Source of the DNA: Lentisphaerota bacterium
GTDB lineage: Bacteria > Verrucomicrobiota > Lentisphaeria > Victivallales > UBA1829
Reading direction: 5' to 3'
NCBI GenBank assembly: GCA_015061915.1
Contig: SUVR01000012.1
Location: 1-64,000, forward strand
DNA length: 64,000 nt
A model generated the notes under the pieces. The model saw only the letters and a program-made list of their open reading frames with translations. It was not told the DNA's origin and searched no databases. How positions within the stretch are numbered: the stretch's first letter is position 1; each line of letters opens with the position of its first letter. The position numbers and the translations under genes are program-made. Shown piece after piece: positions 49,181-62,014 of the stretch.

Positions 49181-52100
49181 ATGTCTTTCACGCTGCAGAA
49201 AGGTGATATGATTGATAAATACTGTATCGAGCGTTGTCTCGGTTCAGGCGGTATGGGGGCGGTATATCTTGTCCGTCACACTCAGTTGAATGCGTTGCGG
49301 GCGATGAAAGTGCTGCACACCAGCACCGCAGAGGAAGATCCGGAATTCCGGGAGCGCTTTATCCGGGAAGCGAAATTTGCGGCAAAGATCCAACACACCA
49401 ATATCGTATCTGTTATGGATGTGGAACTGGAGTCCGATTCCGGCTTTTCCTACATCGTGATGGAGTATATCGAAGGTCAGACGGTTTGTGATATTCTTCA
49501 GCAGGGACCGATCTCTGAAAAACAGGCGATCCATATCATCATTGAAGCCGCAAAAGGGCTTGCCTATGCAGCAGAAAACGGGATCGTTCACCGGGACATC
49601 AAACCGGCGAACATCATGATCAAAAAGACCGGGGAAGTAAAACTGGCTGATATGGGGATCGCCAAAAATATCAATCACACCGGCAATACCTTGAGTCTGA
49701 CAATGGAAGGGACCATGATCGGCACACCGGCGTATGCCTCTCCGGAACAGTGCCGCTGCGCACGGGATGTGGATACTCGGGCTGATATTTACAGTCTCGG
49801 TGCAACGCTTTACGAAATGCTGACCGGAAAACCGCCCTTCTCCGGAAAAAACGAGTTTGATGTCATTGCAAAAGTCCTCAAGCGTATGCCGGTCCCCATT
49901 GAACAGCTTGCCCCGAATATCAAGCCGGGGATCATTAAGCTCGTCCGGAAAATGATGGCAAAAGATCCTGCCGACCGCCCGCAGACGATGCTGGACCTGT
50001 TGGAAGAACTTTACAAATTTGAACGGCGCCAGAACAATATGCTGGAACCGCTCCAGCAGAAACTGATCGAAAAGCGTGCGGAAGAAGTGGCACAGAAGCG
50101 TTTAAGCGTGATCCTGAACACCACCCTCAAGGCTCGTCAGAAAAAAGCGATCTTCTATTCTGTTTCCGGTTTCATCCTGATCCTGGCGTTTTCCGTCGGG
50201 GCATTCTTCTACTACAAGAACAGACCGATCGAAAGCACGATCCAGGTCGGCGAACACCCGGCAGCAAAGATCATTGATCAGCAGAACCGGATCACGGAAG
50301 ACAGGGATCTGGGGATCGTTTTCAATAAGAATCTGAAAGTTTTGCTGCGTTTTCCGGCAAAGCTCCAGTTAACGGAATATCAGATCCCCGCAGGGATCAC
50401 CCGGATCGAAAATATGGCTTTCGCTGAAAACAACACGTTGAAAAAAATCGTGATCCCCGATTCTGTGACCAGCATCGGCGATAAAGCATTTCTGGATTGT
50501 ACGGCACTGGAGGAGATCGTCTTGCCGGATACGATCACGAAACTGAATTCGCAGACTTTTTCCGGCTGTACTGCGATGAAGAATATCGTGCTGCCGGATT
50601 CCCTTACGATGCTTGATGAGCGGACATTCAGTTGCTGTACCTCTTTGGAAAACCTGATTTTACCGGCTTCCGCCCAACAGGTGAAAGACGATTGCTTCAC
50701 GCTCTGCCGGAATCTGAAAAGCATTACGGTGCCGGAACAGCTTGCCGATCCGGAAAAAATCATTACCTGGGGGCTTCCGGAAAATTGTGCTGTCATTTGC
50801 AACGGAAAGGAAATCTTCCGCACCGGTCCGGAATCAGTCAAGGACAAAAGCGGGATCCGTTTCAGCAAAGACGGCAAAACGCTACTGCGGTATCCGCCGG
50901 AACTGGGCACGACCCATTACACCATTCCGGACGGCATCACCGGGATCGGCGAAAAGGCATTTTCCGGCTGTACCGATCTGAAAGTGGTTATGATTCCGCC
51001 AAGTGTTGTTTTCATTGATCATAATGCGTTCTCCGGCGTTCAGGCGGTCAAATTGCTGCCGGGAAATGCGACCTTTGAAATGGATGCCGCCGGAGCCCTG
51101 ATCGACAAACAGGAAAAACGCCTTGTCTACTTTCCCCGCAGCTACAAAGGTAAATACGTCATTCCGGATACCGTGCGTGCCATCTGCAACCATGTTTTTT
51201 ACCATTGCGCAGTAACGGAACTGGTCGTACCGGAAAGTGTGGAAGAAATTGAAGACAGAGCATTTTCAAACTGCAACGCCCTGCTCTCTCTGACCATTCC
51301 GGAAAAGTTTTTTGACACCCGGATCGACACCTGGAACCTTCCCCGGGATTGTCAGGTCAACAATCTGAATGAAGAGGAAGAAGAAGAATTGGAAGCACCG
51401 GAAGCGCAGAAAGCACAGGTCGCCGCTACTCCGGTACAAGTCGCCGCAGCTCCCGCCGCTCCGGTTGTCCGGGAGTTTCCATTGGATATGGAAAAAATCA
51501 ATGCCGATAAAAAGCGCGGGATCGTTTTTTCCGCAAATAACCGTTCTCTCCTGCGTTATCCCACCGGTCTTCCGGATAAATCCTACACGGTTCCGGATGG
51601 TATCACGAGTTTGGATCAGAATGCCTTTTTTGCGGCACAACATTTGACCGAAGTCACACTGCCCAAGAGCCTGCGTTACATCGGTCCCGGTGCATTTTCC
51701 TCCACCGGGATGAGCAAGATCCTACTGCCGGAAAATATCAGCGGCTTTTCCGGAACTTCATTCGGACTGCTGGAAGTGACGCTGTCACCGGAAAATAAAT
51801 TTCTGATCCAACACAAGGATGGCACGATCACAACCAACGGCAAGGAAAAAACATTGTTGTATGTCCCTAAAACGCTGCAGGGAACCTACATTGTTCCGGA
51901 AGATGTGACAACGCTGCCCTATGCTGCTTTTTACTATTGTAAAAATCTGAAAACGATCAAGCTGCACAACGGGATAAAATCGATCAGTCCCTCCGTATTC
52001 AACTCCTGTGCCTCGCTCCGGGTAATGCAGTTACCAACGGGAATGACATCGATCCCGGGCAGTCTTTTCCTGCACTGCTCATCGCTGAAATATGTCACGA

Positions 52101-52456
52101 TCCCGGATACGGTCAAAGTCATTGGCGATCTGGCTTTCTTCGGCTGCTATCAGTTGGATGATGTTCAACTGCCAGCGGGGCTCACCCGGATCGGCGGTCA
52201 GGCGTTTCAGGAGTGTGCCTCCATGCGAAAGATCAAACTGCCGGATTCCCTCGTATTGATCGGCGGTCAGGCATTCAGCGGCTGTTCATCTTTGAAAGAA
52301 GTCACAATCCCGGACAGCGTGGAAAGTATCGGTCACGGTGCTTTTTCCGGCTGTACCGCCCTCAAGAGCATCAGTTTTCCCGCCCGTTTCTCCCGCGACT
52401 ACATCCGGAAGCTGGGGCTGCCATCCGACTGCAAGATCAAACGCCGCCCAAAATAA
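49181..52456 (+). CDS. transmembrane Ser/Thr kinase with triplicated BspA-type leucine-rich-repeat ectodomain
   Basis: In this 1091-residue protein, residues 13-280 form a Hanks-type kinase: Gly loop GSGGMG (21-26), Lys43, HRDIKPAN (Asp139) and DMG (157-159) instead of DFG. A charged linker and one membrane helix (about 325-344) follow. The outer part, 345-1091, consists of LRR_5-type repeats (IVIPDSVTSIGDKAF, VTIPDSVESIGHGAF). It falls into three similar modules starting near 380, 555 and 790, each opening with a GI.F....LLR.P pattern and closing with a LP.(D/E/N)C pattern; an acidic and Ala/Pro-rich linker (about 728-763) separates modules two and three. It looks like a receptor kinase whose ligand is unknown. 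Confidence 0.92.
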   Translation: MSFTLQKGDMIDKYCIERCLGSGGMGAVYLVRHTQLNALRAMKVLHTSTAEEDPEFRERFIREAKFAAKIQHTNIVSVMDVELESDSGFSYIVMEYIEGQTVCDILQQGPISEKQAIHIIIEAAKGLAYAAENGIVHRDIKPANIMIKKTGEVKLADMGIAKNINHTGNTLSLTMEGTMIGTPAYASPEQCRCARDVDTRADIYSLGATLYEMLTGKPPFSGKNEFDVIAKVLKRMPVPIEQLAPNIKPGIIKLVRKMMAKDPADRPQTMLDLLEELYKFERRQNNMLEPLQQKLIEKRAEEVAQKRLSVILNTTLKARQKKAIFYSVSGFILILAFSVGAFFYYKNRPIESTIQVGEHPAAKIIDQQNRITEDRDLGIVFNKNLKVLLRFPAKLQLTEYQIPAGITRIENMAFAENNTLKKIVIPDSVTSIGDKAFLDCTALEEIVLPDTITKLNSQTFSGCTAMKNIVLPDSLTMLDERTFSCCTSLENLILPASAQQVKDDCFTLCRNLKSITVPEQLADPEKIITWGLPENCAVICNGKEIFRTGPESVKDKSGIRFSKDGKTLLRYPPELGTTHYTIPDGITGIGEKAFSGCTDLKVVMIPPSVVFIDHNAFSGVQAVKLLPGNATFEMDAAGALIDKQEKRLVYFPRSYKGKYVIPDTVRAICNHVFYHCAVTELVVPESVEEIEDRAFSNCNALLSLTIPEKFFDTRIDTWNLPRDCQVNNLNEEEEEELEAPEAQKAQVAATPVQVAAAPAAPVVREFPLDMEKINADKKRGIVFSANNRSLLRYPTGLPDKSYTVPDGITSLDQNAFFAAQHLTEVTLPKSLRYIGPGAFSSTGMSKILLPENISGFSGTSFGLLEVTLSPENKFLIQHKDGTITTNGKEKTLLYVPKTLQGTYIVPEDVTTLPYAAFYYCKNLKTIKLHNGIKSISPSVFNSCASLRVMQLPTGMTSIPGSLFLHCSSLKYVTIPDTVKVIGDLAFFGCYQLDDVQLPAGLTRIGGQAFQECASMRKIKLPDSLVLIGGQAFSGCSSLKEVTIPDSVESIGHGAFSGCTALKSISFPARFSRDYIRKLGLPSDCKIKRRPK

Positions 52457-54773: not shown

Positions 54774-54817
54774 ATAAGCGTATTTTTGATTTTTTTTTGA
54801 ACAAGGAGCTGTCTTTT

Positions 54818-55711
54818 ATGAAAGTGACACTGGCAAACCTGACCGATTTCGGATGTTTCAATGACATCCCGGAATATTACCATAATTATATCTTTGAAGA
54901 ATGGCGCACCCACGGCGCAGATAAAATGGTCTTCACCGTTGCCATGATGGAAAAAGCTGTCCTTGATCCCGAATTTGCTGCCCGATTCATCAAAAAAGCG
55001 GCGGACCACGGCTTGCAATTCACCGATGCACACGTGCCGTGGTATCCGGTCTGGGCGCTCAACACGCCACCGGAATATAAAGAGGAGATGTTGAAAAACA
55101 ACTCCCGTGCGCTGGAACTCTGCGGAGAATGTGGAGCAAAAACGCTGACGATCCACGTGGGTGACAATATCTGCCGGAATACCTCGTTCGATCCTCAAAA
55201 GGCGCACGACTGGCTGGATGCCACACTGGAAAAACTGATCCCGGTCGCTGAAAAAAACAAGGTCGTTCTCTGTATTGAAAACATCATCGCCCCCACCGAC
55301 CAGCCGGATGAACTGCTGCGCTGTTTCGCAAAATTCTCCTCGCCGTACTTCGGCTGCTGTTACGACTCCGGTCATGCCAACGTGATGGAAAGCTTCCCCG
55401 GCAAAGATCCGCAGCGGCTCTGCTCCTGGATCAAAGACACTCTCTGGCAGGGGAACCCGAAATATTATGATGGCGATACCATCACGGCTCTGCTGCCCCA
55501 TATCGTTACCTGTCACCTGCACGATAATGACGGATACGAAGATCAGCACCTTCCGCCGGGACGCGGCACGGTCAAGTGGGATCATGTGCTTTCTTCGCTG
55601 GAACAGGCGCCCCGTCTGCTGACGATCCAGAACGAAGCCAATGCCCTGCGCGATGGCGGCACCTCCATCGCCGCCATGCACGAAGCCTTCCGGAAAGTCG
55701 GGTTCCAATGA
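54818..55711 (+). CDS. sugar phosphate isomerase/epimerase (xylose-isomerase-like barrel)
   Basis: This 297-residue TIM barrel has the metal-site pattern of the AP-endonuclease-2 superfamily: Glu in LCIENI, YDSGHANVM with Asp and His, and THIVTCHLHDN with two His and Asp near the C-terminus. It would interconvert ketoses or related sugars. AAGGAG precedes the ATG by about 11 bases; the upstream open frame was rejected as lacking a site. The stop overlaps the transporter start (ATGA). Its link to thiamine genes is unexplained. Confidence 0.87.
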   Translation: MKVTLANLTDFGCFNDIPEYYHNYIFEEWRTHGADKMVFTVAMMEKAVLDPEFAARFIKKAADHGLQFTDAHVPWYPVWALNTPPEYKEEMLKNNSRALELCGECGAKTLTIHVGDNICRNTSFDPQKAHDWLDATLEKLIPVAEKNKVVLCIENIIAPTDQPDELLRCFAKFSSPYFGCCYDSGHANVMESFPGKDPQRLCSWIKDTLWQGNPKYYDGDTITALLPHIVTCHLHDNDGYEDQHLPPGRGTVKWDHVLSSLEQAPRLLTIQNEANALRDGGTSIAAMHEAFRKVGFQ

Positions 55712-56412
55712 AAAAACTTTTCTCCGATGCCCTGAAAGGCTGGTCCCTTCCTGATCTTCTGCTGCTCTCCACGGCAGCTGTTCTCCTGCTCGCGCTGATG
55801 ATTTACGACGGCGCACAGGATGTGATTGGTGTCATCAGCGCTCTGACCGGGATCCTTTACACGCTGCTTGCCGGAAAAGGGAAAGCACTCTGTTACATCT
55901 TCGGGATTATCAACACGATCCTTTACGGATATGTGGCGTACGCCGGAGGTGTCTATGGCGACATGGCATTGAACTGGCTTTATTATCTGCCGATGATGTT
56001 CGTGGGACTTTACACCTGGAGCAGACATACGGAAACGGCTTCCGGCGGCGTGTTCCGTAAAAAGCTGACATCCTTCCAGCGGATGCGGATCATCGGTCTT
56101 ACCGGGATCGGGTGGCTGATCCTGTGGTCGCTGCTGGACTACTCCGGCGGTTCTTCCCCCATCCTCGATGGAGCAACGACTGCCTTGAGCATCGCTGCCA
56201 TGATCCTCGGCGTGATGCGCTGTTTTGAACAGTGGCTTGCCTGGACCGCCGTCAATACCCTCTCCATCCTTATGTGGTTCCGGCTCTGGCAACGGGGAGA
56301 AGGCAGCCTTTCCACACTCATCATGTGGGGTGTATTCCTCATTTGCGGGATCATCTTTACAGTGCAATGGCTGAAGAAAAAAGAAGATGAACCGGCGGAG
56401 GCGGCACAATGA
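55708..56412 (+). CDS. PnuC-family transporter, probably thiamine (PnuT)
   Basis: This inner-membrane protein of about 234 residues has seven or so helices. The family stretch is GDMALNWLYYLPMMFVGLYTW, and the C-terminal helix contains EQWLAWTAVNTLSI. PnuC relatives move vitamins by facilitated diffusion, and phosphorylation inside traps them. The thiamine pyrophosphokinase gene overlapping its end argues for thiamine rather than nicotinamide riboside. That assignment is inference from context. The start overlaps the isomerase stop by 4 bases. Confidence 0.87.
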   Translation: MKKLFSDALKGWSLPDLLLLSTAAVLLLALMIYDGAQDVIGVISALTGILYTLLAGKGKALCYIFGIINTILYGYVAYAGGVYGDMALNWLYYLPMMFVGLYTWSRHTETASGGVFRKKLTSFQRMRIIGLTGIGWLILWSLLDYSGGSSPILDGATTALSIAAMILGVMRCFEQWLAWTAVNTLSILMWFRLWQRGEGSLSTLIMWGVFLICGIIFTVQWLKKKEDEPAEAAQ

Positions 56413-57038
56413 ATGTAGTCATCGTTGCAGACGGCACTTTTCCGACACATCCCCTGCCCCTTTCTGCGTTGAAAGAAGCCGACATCATCATTGCCTGCGA
56501 CGGTGCGGCAAAAACATTGCTTCATGCCGGGTTCATGCCTCATTGTGTGGTGGGCGATCTGGATACACTGGAGAAAGAGATCCAGCAACAACTGAAAGAC
56601 CGTCTGGAACATGAGACCGAACAGGAGACAAACGACTTGAGCAAAGCGTTCCGCTCCGCCTTGAGAAAGATGTCTGCAGCCGATACCCTCACCATTCTCG
56701 GCGCCACAGGGAAGCGGGAAGATCACACACTGGGCAATCTTTCACTCCTTGCCGATTTCGCCGGACAACACAGCAGGATCCGTCTGCTGACCGATCATGG
56801 AACATTTCTGCCGGTGACCGGTACAGCCGTGATCCCGTGCCATCCCGGTCAGGCGGTCTCCTTCTTCAATCCCACGGGGAATCCGGTCCGGCTCACCGGT
56901 AACAATCTGAAATATCCGGTTTGTGATCTTGCACTCGACCGCTGGTGGACCGCTACCCTCAACACGGCAACGGCAGACACCCTTGAACTGAAAACAACCC
57001 CCGCCGATGCCACGGTGATCGTGTTCCTGAATCATTGA
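56409..57038 (+). CDS. thiamine pyrophosphokinase
   Basis: It transfers pyrophosphate from ATP to thiamine, giving thiamine pyrophosphate. The 209-residue protein shows ACDGAAKTLL, VVGDLDTL (metal-binding Asp pair), TNDLSKAF and LGATGKREDHTLGN, all family landmarks. The C-terminal beta domain is present. GGAGG precedes the ATG, which overlaps the transporter stop. With the PnuC-type transporter it makes an uptake-and-trap pair. Confidence 0.93.
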   Translation: MNVVIVADGTFPTHPLPLSALKEADIIIACDGAAKTLLHAGFMPHCVVGDLDTLEKEIQQQLKDRLEHETEQETNDLSKAFRSALRKMSAADTLTILGATGKREDHTLGNLSLLADFAGQHSRIRLLTDHGTFLPVTGTAVIPCHPGQAVSFFNPTGNPVRLTGNNLKYPVCDLALDRWWTATLNTATADTLELKTTPADATVIVFLNH

Positions 57039-57102: not shown

Positions 57103-57753
57103 ATGACAAAAGAATATTACACAAGTTTCGGTAAAGACCAATGGAACCGCGAAGACTGGCTCGTGGTCCGCAGCCCGCGCTGGGAAGATGTGAGCCACTG
57201 GCTCCAGAACGATGACTGCATTGCAAATTATGTACCGGATGACCTGAAGCCGGAAGATATGCAGATGGGACGCGACCGGACCGGCGAAAGCTATATCAGT
57301 ATGCTCCTGAAACAGCCGGTCACCGGCAGCGTCCGCCTTTCCACGACCTGCGCTTTCGACAGCCGTATGGCTCCCCTGATCGTGCTTTCCCGGGAATTGG
57401 GTCCGGTCCACCATGAACATCTGGAAGTGGTGCTGTACGACCGGGGCGTGAACCTGTGGCATCATTTCTACAAGGACGGCAAGCCCTCCTGGAAGCTGCT
57501 CTCCTTCATCGAGCTGGATCTGGCGATCGGGGAAAAGCACATCCTTACCGCCGAGATGATCTTCACCCACAAGGGCAGATTCCTCCTGATGGGATGCGAT
57601 GGAAAAACATTCGGATGCCGGATCGCAGACGACTGGCCCGAAACTTATTATGTGGGCTTCACCGGTTGCGAAGGCAGAAACCGGTTCTACGATTTCCGTG
57701 TCATTCCCGGCAGAACCGACTCCGAGGCAATGAAGGAGCGGGTCTCCGATTAA
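57103..57753 (+). CDS. hypothetical beta-rich protein, possibly concanavalin-like
   Basis: The 216-residue cytosolic protein has no recognised family. Alternating beta-like segments (GSVRLSTTCAFD, HEHLEVVLYDRGVNLWHHF, GEKHILTAEMIFTHKGRFLLMGCDG, YYVGFTGCEGRNRFYDFRV) suggest a lectin-like jelly roll of the type that binds sugars. GGAGAAGAAC precedes the ATG. It is a single-gene unit with its own promoter. Its terminator-like hairpin lies inside the end of the convergent transporter gene. Confidence 0.65.
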   Translation: MTKEYYTSFGKDQWNREDWLVVRSPRWEDVSHWLQNDDCIANYVPDDLKPEDMQMGRDRTGESYISMLLKQPVTGSVRLSTTCAFDSRMAPLIVLSRELGPVHHEHLEVVLYDRGVNLWHHFYKDGKPSWKLLSFIELDLAIGEKHILTAEMIFTHKGRFLLMGCDGKTFGCRIADDWPETYYVGFTGCEGRNRFYDFRVIPGRTDSEAMKERVSD

Positions 57754-59319: not shown

Positions 59320-59364
59320 AATCCGGAACACAGAGAAAAATCAATCAACGTGAGGAAAAACGGT

Positions 59365-60978
59365 ATGAAACTTTGTGCGCTCCAGATCCCCTTCGCCTAC
59401 AATGAGGCAGATTGCGATGCTTCCGTCCGGTTCGCCATCGAACAGCTCAAACAGTGTGATGAATCCTGCGACATCATCCTGACTCCCGAATACACCAACG
59501 CCCCGGCAAATTTTGAAAAAGGTGCCTGTATCCCGTACACAAAAAAGTTCACGGACGAACTGTTGACGACCGCAAAGGAAACGGCACGCCGCTGCAACGC
59601 CATTGTGGCGGTCAACTATGTGAGCGAAGCGGAAGAAGGTATATTCCGCAACACCACGGCTGTCTTTGACCGACAGGGAAACGAGGCGGGACATTTCTAC
59701 AAACAGCATCTGCCCCGCGCGGAACGGAACATCAATCTGCTGGATGAGACATACACCCGCAAGTTCCGCCGCCCGGACATCGTTACGGTGGATGGGATCC
59801 GGTTCGGGTTCCTAATCTGTTACGATACGTACTACACGGAATATGTGGCACACATCGCCAGCTGCAAGCCGGATATTGTGCTGGTCTCCTCCTTCCAGCG
59901 GGCGGAACGCCCCGAGATCCTGCGGATCCAGAATCAGCATCTTGCCTTTTATTGCAACTGCTATGTACTGCGCGCCTCCGTCTCCATGGGGGAAAACGCC
60001 ACCACCGGCGGCATATCCATGGCGGTCACGCCCGAAGGAACGATTCTGGGCGAGTTCGGCAACAAACTGGGGCTGTTCACTTGCGAGATTGAGGACATCC
60101 ATCACAAATTTATGCGATCCAACAGCTTCGGCGGCAGCATGATCCCCAACGATAAATTCATCAGTCAGGGCAGAACGCCGTGGGCGTACCGGACCTGCGG
60201 CAGCCCGGTGATCGAACCGGAATCCACCCTGCCCTATCCCCGGATCTGCGCACACCGGGGCTTCAATACCGTTGCGCCGGAAAACACCCTGCCCGCTTTC
60301 GGTGCCGCCATCGCTCTCGGGGCGGAAGAGATCGAACTGGATGTGCGGTTCTCCTCTGACGGCGTCCCGGTCGTCTGTCACGATGACCGCCTTGACCGGG
60401 TATCCGATGGCACCGGGCTGGTTCAGGACAAAACGTTTGCCGAACTGAAAGCGCTGGACTTCGGCAGCCGTTTCGGCGAGCGTTTCAAAGGTTTGCCGAT
60501 CGCCTCCTTTGAAGAAGTGCTGGCAAAATTCTCCCGCCAGACCATCATCAACCTGCATATCAAAAATTTCGGTCCGGTGGAAGAAAAATATCCGGCAGAC
60601 AAGTTCCAAAAGATCGTGGACCTGCTGGAAAAATATGATTTTCTGGACAATGTCTATCTTATGGCGACCTCCGGGGTCATGGAAACCGCCATGGAGATCG
60701 CGCCGGACATCCCCCGCTGCATGAGTGCCGATCCCGATCCCTGGAAGATCGTGGACCGCGCCATTGAATGGAAGTGCAGCAAGGTCCAGCTCTTTGCCCC
60801 TTATTACAATCAGGAAATGATCGACAAAGCCCACGCAAACGGCATCCGCTGCAACATTTTCTACTGCGACGACCCGGCAAAAGCGGAAGAACTTTTTGCT
60901 ATGGGGATCGATACCATCCTTACCAACGATTATCTTGCAATCGCAAATGTTTTGAAGAGAATCAAAGAAAAGGAATAA
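59365..60978 (+). CDS. fused carbon-nitrogen hydrolase (nitrilase) and glycerophosphodiester phosphodiesterase
   Basis: The 537-residue cytosolic protein has two complete catalytic domains in one frame. Residues 1-285 form a nitrilase-superfamily amidohydrolase with triad Glu42 (TPEY), Lys113 (FYKQHLP) and Cys152 (FLICYD). Residues 293-535 form a GDPD domain: ICAHRGFNTVAPENT with His297-Arg298, EIELDVRFSSDG with Glu324 and Asp326, and CHDDRLDRVSDGTG with His339. GAGGA precedes ATG 59365. The gene for a beta-helix protein follows 4 bases on. Such a fusion suggests a substrate with both an amide and a phosphodiester; no known example came to mind. Confidence 0.93.
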   Translation: MKLCALQIPFAYNEADCDASVRFAIEQLKQCDESCDIILTPEYTNAPANFEKGACIPYTKKFTDELLTTAKETARRCNAIVAVNYVSEAEEGIFRNTTAVFDRQGNEAGHFYKQHLPRAERNINLLDETYTRKFRRPDIVTVDGIRFGFLICYDTYYTEYVAHIASCKPDIVLVSSFQRAERPEILRIQNQHLAFYCNCYVLRASVSMGENATTGGISMAVTPEGTILGEFGNKLGLFTCEIEDIHHKFMRSNSFGGSMIPNDKFISQGRTPWAYRTCGSPVIEPESTLPYPRICAHRGFNTVAPENTLPAFGAAIALGAEEIELDVRFSSDGVPVVCHDDRLDRVSDGTGLVQDKTFAELKALDFGSRFGERFKGLPIASFEEVLAKFSRQTIINLHIKNFGPVEEKYPADKFQKIVDLLEKYDFLDNVYLMATSGVMETAMEIAPDIPRCMSADPDPWKIVDRAIEWKCSKVQLFAPYYNQEMIDKAHANGIRCNIFYCDDPAKAEELFAMGIDTILTNDYLAIANVLKRIKEKE

Positions 60979-60982
60979 GACC

Positions 60983-62014
60983 ATGTTTCTCCCTGCTGAC
61001 CGCACCCTCGCCGACTTTCCCCGTCTGGCAAACGAAACCGATGATGCACCCCGTATCCAGCGCGCCATTGACGCCTGCCCCTCCGGTGTTCTTTACATCC
61101 CCGGCGGGATCTACGAGATCGCCACGCCTGTGTGTGTGAAAAATCTCTGTTCTCTGCTGCTGCACAAGTCCGCCGTCCTCCGCGCCGTGAAGGAGATGGA
61201 TTTTGTCATGCGCGTGGAGTGCGCCATGCAGTGGGATAAATCCCTGCGGACGCCGGATATGCCCGAAGACTACAACCTCTTTGTCCGGGGTGGTCAGTTC
61301 GACGGCAACGGGCTGGCATCCTGCCTTGTTCTCTCCCATTATCACCACTTTACGCTGGCGGACACCACCTGTCTCAACGGCAAAAAGTACGGTCTGAAAG
61401 TGGACGATGAACAGCGTTACGGCTATGAACTGATCGTGAATAACCTTTACTGTAAGACGGTCATCCCCGGTCTGGCGGGAAATATCGGGGTCTATGTGAC
61501 CGGCGGCGACAGCCACTACACGGATGTGGTGGTCATCGACTACACCACCGGTTTCAAATTTGTGGAACACGGTTGGGCGTGCCGTCTGACCCGCTGCCAC
61601 GTCTGGGGCGGTCCGGTCCCACCGCCTGCCGAAGGCGAACTGCCGGAAATGCTCAAGGATTCCATCTGTTTTGATATCCAGTCCGACGGCTGCATCCTGC
61701 GGGACTGCTATGCCGATACCGGAGCGATCGGATTCAAGATCGCCGGAAACACCAGTCTGCTGGGATGCTATTATTTCAGCAATCCCAGATTCGGGCTGGA
61801 CAACATCACCTGCATCAAGCACGAGCGGGGACATCTCACCGTGGCGGAGTGCGCCTTCAACAAGACCGCCGAACACGTGAAGCTCTATGAAGGCGATGGC
61901 GTGAACGGGATCTGGTCCAACAACCATCTGCTGGCATTCCCTGAAGACACCCCCTGCCCCTTCTCCGGCAAGGCGGATGCCAAAGCGGAATACCGTCCAC
62001 TTGCCGGTATGTAA
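60983..62014 (+). CDS. right-handed beta-helix protein (pectate-lyase / GH28-like)
   Basis: The 343-residue protein opens like glycan-active beta-helices: DDAPRIQRAIDACPSGVLYIPGGIYEIATPV. Repeated rung-like segments follow (FVRGGQFDGNGLASCLVLSHYHHFTLADTT, CFDIQSDGCILRDCYADTGAIGFKIAGNT). No signal peptide is seen and I did not find a clear catalytic set, so the activity is open. It follows the nitrilase-GDPD gene by 4 bases and is translated from the same message. A terminator lies at 62030. Confidence 0.82.
   Translation: MFLPADRTLADFPRLANETDDAPRIQRAIDACPSGVLYIPGGIYEIATPVCVKNLCSLLLHKSAVLRAVKEMDFVMRVECAMQWDKSLRTPDMPEDYNLFVRGGQFDGNGLASCLVLSHYHHFTLADTTCLNGKKYGLKVDDEQRYGYELIVNNLYCKTVIPGLAGNIGVYVTGGDSHYTDVVVIDYTTGFKFVEHGWACRLTRCHVWGGPVPPPAEGELPEMLKDSICFDIQSDGCILRDCYADTGAIGFKIAGNTSLLGCYYFSNPRFGLDNITCIKHERGHLTVAECAFNKTAEHVKLYEGDGVNGIWSNNHLLAFPEDTPCPFSGKADAKAEYRPLAGM

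Follow-up and report, generated by a model that had tools for sequence, protein, structure and literature searches.

A nitrilase-type hydrolase joined to a glycerophosphodiester phosphodiesterase with an invariant histidine in its metal site: an apparently undescribed protein family of gut bacteria

Why a single polypeptide should combine a hydrolase of the nitrilase superfamily with a glycerophosphodiester phosphodiesterase (GDPD), and whether the two halves are likely to work on one and the same compound, are the questions raised by a gene of a Lentisphaerota bacterium (assembly GCA_015061915.1) contained in positions 1 to 64,000 of contig SUVR01000012.1, the whole 64,000-nucleotide stretch that was analysed and that is here called the window. 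The initial annotation of the locus, made by reading the sequence, described a single unbroken frame encoding both domains, and this is borne out by the open reading frame and by Pfam (table 1); the residues and motifs that it named, namely Glu42, Lys113 and Cys152 in the first half and HR, EIELD and HD in the second, are all found. The start is placed at ATG 59365, with an in-frame GTG 15 bases upstream as the alternative, and relatives of the protein likewise begin at the M-K position matching this ATG. A frame broken in the original reads had been named as one circumstance that would undo the description; full-length homologues (39-68% identity, plus one at 32%) recur in many independent assemblies, so that the frame is genuine and an assembly or frame artefact, or a sequencing error, is ruled out.

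Table 1. Features of the fusion gene and of its product (positions in the window).
Feature	Position	Strand	Basis
Fusion gene, CN_hydrolase + GDPD	59365..60978	+	537 aa + TAA; ORF, Pfam, full-length homologues
Probable ribosome-binding site, GAGGA	59352..59356	+	8 bases 5' of ATG; direct sequence reading
CN_hydrolase (nitrilase superfamily) domain, residues 1-257	59365..60135	+	PF00795, Foldseek
Catalytic Glu42 codon	59488..59490	+	92/92; E in 159/160 fusion rows, other row gapped
Catalytic Lys113 codon	59701..59703	+	Invariant, 92 aligned + 160 fusion rows
Second active-site Glu120 codon	59722..59724	+	Invariant, 92 aligned + 160 fusion rows
Catalytic Cys152 codon	59818..59820	+	Invariant, 92 aligned + 160 fusion rows
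Gln178-Arg179, clade-specific pair	59896..59901	+	160/160 fusion rows, 6/6 nested CN-only relatives; outgroups vary
Arg203, clade-specific	59971..59973	+	160/160 fusion rows; outgroups mostly Thr/Ala/Gly
Inter-domain segment, residues 258-290, predicted ordered	60136..60234	+	pLDDT 82-91 per 10-residue block over 251-290
GDPD domain, residues 291-537	60235..60975	+	PF03009, Foldseek
His297-Arg298 (HR motif)	60253..60258	+	92/92
Glu324-x-Asp326, metal ligands 1 and 2	60334..60342	+	92/92
His339-Asp340 (HD motif)	60379..60384	+	92/92
His398, at third metal ligand position (ttGDPD E119)	60556..60558	+	Alignment to 2pz0; 92/92

Proteins extending over both halves are found in the window's own order, in other members of its phylum and in many gut Clostridia. 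One scan of a genome collection left 80 loci, mostly of Clostridia and in part of Lentisphaeria, in gut metagenomes of ruminants and deer; homologues covering both halves are present at 79 of them, the exception (L113) consisting of the GDPD half alone, and another locus ends at a contig edge. A sample of the window's phylum gave a strong match in 27 of 241 genomes (in three by the GDPD half alone), and a sample of the clostridial class gave such a match in 26 of 341, some of them truncated or single-domain. The fusion thus occurs patchily, and in several clostridial genomes it is present twice. Overall, the fusion is present in roughly a hundred species, mainly gut bacteria and belonging to different phyla, a figure which is the sum of several, partly overlapping genome samples. 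An origin from a phage or a plasmid was considered and set aside, since neither collection yielded a match over the greater part of the protein; the matches listed there are to the GDPD half.

The N-terminal half matches the CN_hydrolase family PF00795 over residues 25-232 (E 5.9e-18, 65.6 bits against a curated cut-off of 23.2), and the alpha-beta-beta-alpha fold of nitrilases is recovered in its AlphaFold model, for which Foldseek, in a comparison made with the two-domain protein, returned mouse Nit2, N-carbamoylputrescine amidohydrolase and the Nesterenkonia amidase (TM 0.55-0.73 by target for Nit2 and others). The tetrad formed by Glu42, Lys113, Glu120 and Cys152 is constant in all 92 aligned family members. 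Fold and Glu-Lys-Glu-Cys site are thus common to the fusion and to Nit2/omega-amidase, deaminated glutathione amidase, N-carbamoylputrescine amidase and the Nesterenkonia amidase, whereas the identity to the solved PF00795 amidases is only about 14-19% in structure alignments and the fusions carry a signature of their own. Indeed, Tyr156, Gln178, Arg179 and Arg203 are constant in the 160 fusion rows of a wider alignment, in which certain genes are present twice, and in six CN-only relatives nested among the fusions; none of the 19 outgroup CN hydrolases that were compared carries the full set. Judging from the general layout of nitrilases, these residues would be placed around the pocket, and the signature suggests an anionic substrate for this half.

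A more precise name for either half is not provided by the NCBIfam equivalogs, since all of these models score below their cut-offs: those for the deaminated glutathione amidase, AguB and NAD synthetase branches at 25-27 bits against 355-479, and PRK09454, on the GDPD side, at 149 bits against 264. The superfamily also has fused or transferring members (apolipoprotein N-acyltransferase, the glutaminase half of NAD synthetase), a weak NAD+ synthase match is seen and CN-only relatives weakly match lnt, so that the nitrilase-like half might be thought of as an acyl- or amido-transfer enzyme, feeding a group to the GDPD half or using one derived from it. Such a role is very improbable: these matches all fall far under the curated cut-offs, no membrane segments are apparent, and a GDPD is a hydrolase without need for ammonia.

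The C-terminal half matches PF03009 over residues 297-522 (E 9.5e-34, 118 bits against a curated cut-off of 23.6), its closest solved folds being the TIM-barrel of 2pz0_A (TM 0.88 by target) and 3qvq, which contains sn-glycerol-3-phosphate. With the GDPD family (2PZ0 of T. tengcongensis, 3QVQ of O. antarctica, UgpQ-type enzymes) it shares the barrel and the HR, E-x-D and HD motifs and, by analogy, it probably also shares the glycerol-3-phosphate product. The catalytic histidine pair and the HR/EN/E-x-D/HD motifs are kept in 92 of 92 aligned sequences, among which His297, Arg298, Glu324, Asp326, His339, Asp340 and Lys400 show no variation; in the 160-row set, some ten rows, from a divergent subgroup of Clostridia, have Tyr instead of Lys400. 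However, the three acidic metal ligands (Glu, Asp, Glu) of the solved enzymes are not reproduced, the third position being occupied by His398 in every fusion (N-L-H-I-K for the N-I-E-I-K that includes Glu119 of ttGDPD). The metal of ttGDPD is bound by Glu44, Asp46 and Glu119 (PMC5095149), and alanine at any one of the three inactivates the enzyme, according to the passage of PMC4926365 that cites Shi et al. 2008. The C-terminal half is still a GDPD by fold and motifs, with a variant metal site. The initial annotation had taken both domains to be catalytically complete. Catalytic residues are indeed kept in both, but with His398 at the third ligand position throughout the family, that wording overstates the case for the GDPD half.

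Stand-alone GDPDs have Glu, Gln, Phe or other residues at position 398, and those on the tree that have His are the ones nested inside the fusion clade. An invariant histidine, at a position where loss of the acidic ligand is reported to abolish activity in ttGDPD, could mean that the exchange of Glu for His changed both metal and chemistry, the GDPD half then acting on a phosphodiester other than that of glycerol (perhaps an amide-bearing one) or serving mainly for recognition. This appears distinctly unlikely, given that His297, Arg298, Glu324, Asp326 and His339 are invariant and that histidine is itself able to bind metal.

Other departures at the same motif were observed among stand-alone GDPDs. 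A sister group (L002, L019, L021, L022, L025, L026 and L029) has I-Q-x-Y, with Gln for the metal-ligand Glu and Tyr for the Lys, and the window's own genome likewise encodes such a protein (G000:C21), its gene preceding a pair of RND-type efflux genes. Larger, divergent GDPDs of Clostridia (L060, L077, L081 and L098) have L-F-I-V at the metal-ligand motif and share contigs with fusions.

In the AlphaFold2 model of the whole protein (mean pLDDT 95.1, pTM 0.84) no disordered linker is found between the halves, and Arg270 and Tyr275 of the inter-domain segment are invariant in the alignment; Foldseek, when searched with this model, listed GDPDs first and nitrilase-type amidases next. The N-terminus is not signal-like by eye, and the protein is presumably soluble and cytoplasmic.

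Trees were inferred for each half by a quick maximum-likelihood procedure, with SH-aLRT supports only and many weak inner branches. In both, the fusions form one clade and the deep subgroups agree, which rules out a chance or recent fusion. Because this single clade is found in either tree, and because the GDPD-only and CN-only proteins that sit within it are nested offshoots, the joining of the domains must be old; it looks like one event, retained across phyla, and the nested single-domain proteins read as repeated loss of one half. Since such offshoots exist for both halves, their coupling is not always needed. The members from G262 and G231, which belong to the phylum of the window but to other lineages in it, cluster with the clostridial ones, a placement that suggests transfer between phyla.

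The genes surrounding the fusion in the window encode a thiamine pyrophosphokinase, a PnuC-type transporter, an isomerase-like TIM barrel, an SNF-type transporter (on the opposite strand) and a beta-helix protein. The last of these starts at 60983, 4 bases past the fusion stop, and its only Pfam match falls below the curated cut-off. From this closeness it had been argued at first that the substrate might be a polymer, for instance of the teichoic type. In favour of a joint degradation of some glycan polymer, teichoic-acid-like or not, by the fusion and the beta-helix protein, one could also cite the glycoside hydrolases or SASA esterases that adjoin some relatives. Yet the glycosidase neighbours are few and from different families, no beta-helix homologue is present near any other fusion fetched, and the fusion is without a signal-like N-terminus, so that a polymer substrate is scarcely probable and that part of the early argument is abandoned. 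More generally, no family is common to the 128 non-redundant operon-like neighbours, for which 198 Pfam families were matched, each in at most three members; the neighbourhoods are not conserved and provide no pathway partner that would confirm a substrate. Phosphoesterases (PHP, type I phosphodiesterase, metallophosphatase) are among several neighbours of other fusions and are seemingly enriched near as compared with far, an excess that carries little weight, since closeness to a fusion was itself the reason for choosing the query families.

Further observations concern the same region. In L010 (1577-2494) and L012 (574-1491) the gene immediately preceding the fusion encodes a relative of an AP_endonuc_2-type TIM barrel of the window (54794-55711), and a 216-aa protein without a Pfam match (window 57103-57753) has a homologue (E 2.4e-15) two genes upstream of the fusion on an Oscillospiraceae contig (L095, 4682-5263). 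At 55705-57038 the thiamine pyrophosphokinase gene begins within the PnuC-type transporter gene, a pairing that we take to indicate uptake of thiamine (PnuT-like) and not of nicotinamide riboside. The 1091-aa protein encoded at 49181-52456 is, by eye, serine/threonine kinase-like in its N-terminal portion, while its C-terminal portion is a long series of repeats similar to leucine-rich (BspA-like) ones.

The same kinds of enzyme are brought together in a different manner in a related genome (G048), where a possible operon (L174, 5869-11333) contains, in this order, a dehydrogenase similar to GlpA or to type-2 glycerol-3-phosphate oxidase, an FAD oxidoreductase, a DUF1667 protein, and then a CN hydrolase and two GDPDs as separate genes. 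Because the dehydrogenase does not reach the curated cut-off of its model, a function on glycerol-3-phosphate is likely, not certain. The CN hydrolase and the GDPD fall outside both fusion clades, and L174 is therefore a second, independent association of the same enzyme kinds; that the split operon is the ancestor of the fusion is contradicted by both half-trees. When the CN hydrolase of L174 was searched for in two further genome samples (240 and 291 genomes), no second operon of this kind came up. The dehydrogenase-oxidoreductase-DUF1667 trio is also present in the window's own genome (G000:C21:52910-55928).

How, then, might the two halves be used? From their sequences, both would be active as enzymes. 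The nitrilase-type domain would hydrolyse an amide-like C-N bond through the Cys-Glu-Lys(-Glu) mechanism, the clade-specific arginines holding a negatively charged group of the substrate, and the GDPD domain, with its metal probably held by Glu324, Asp326 and His398, would cut a glycerophosphodiester to glycerol-3-phosphate and an alcohol. The two steps would probably take place in series, in an order that can only be surmised, on a single glycerophospho-linked amide that the cell would import as a nutrient, of which a deacylated N-acyl- or N-carbamoyl-type glycerophosphoethanolamine is a guessed example, and the glycerol-3-phosphate released may be oxidized by the GlpA-like system of the host. 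We tentatively prefer this picture of a cytosolic two-step hydrolase, although we would put its chances a little short of even. Stepwise breakdown of a compound with both an amide and a phosphodiester, as originally proposed, survives the loss of the polymer argument, linked steps being favoured by the conserved residues, the one old fusion and the gene pair of G048.

Alternatively, two scavenging enzymes may have been joined merely for co-expression or stability, one acting on an unrelated small amide and the other on ordinary glycerophosphodiesters (GPE, GPC, GPG). Neighbourhoods that mix catabolic and housekeeping genes, with no common pathway, would be expected in this case, as would the persistence of single-domain members; on the other hand, one clade across phyla in which both halves are fully conserved and the signature is fixed, and a separate nitrilase-GDPD pair sharing one operon, are less easily accommodated, and we regard a mere joining of scavengers as rather unlikely, though deserving serious consideration.

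Action in series on one amide-bearing glycerophosphodiester has a counterpart in animals, where glycerophospho-N-acylethanolamines are catabolized by a GDE-type phosphodiesterase and then by the FAAH or NAAA amidase. The same two bond types are cut in sequence, but by separate enzymes, with amidases of other families; the likeness to the fusion is one of bond types. Nor are fusions of nitrilase domains unprecedented, NitFhit being one of them. Glutamine-dependent NAD synthetase (PMC3376133) likewise couples a nitrilase-type domain with another enzyme in one protein; differently from both, the partner here is a GDPD hydrolase. Compared with the solved GDPDs, in turn, the fusion has the invariant His398 in place of the third ligand Glu and a nitrilase domain in front.

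We found no account of the nitrilase-GDPD pairing, of its breadth or of the metal-site His in the open literature searched, although databases may list the architecture. Both domains are of known kinds, and the fused family is real and apparently undescribed. That it is a bifunctional family of gut Lentisphaeria and Clostridia, its GDPD metal site remodelled about a histidine, and that it degrades a specific, still unrecognized amide-bearing glycerophosphodiester in the gut of herbivores, is a possibility that we hold with more doubt than confidence. Should a single compound be the substrate of both halves, many gut bacteria would be using a nutrient class, the glycerophospho-linked amides, that has apparently not been followed so far. 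The histidine fixed at the metal site offers, for its part, a natural test of how much alteration the GDPD active site tolerates without loss of function.
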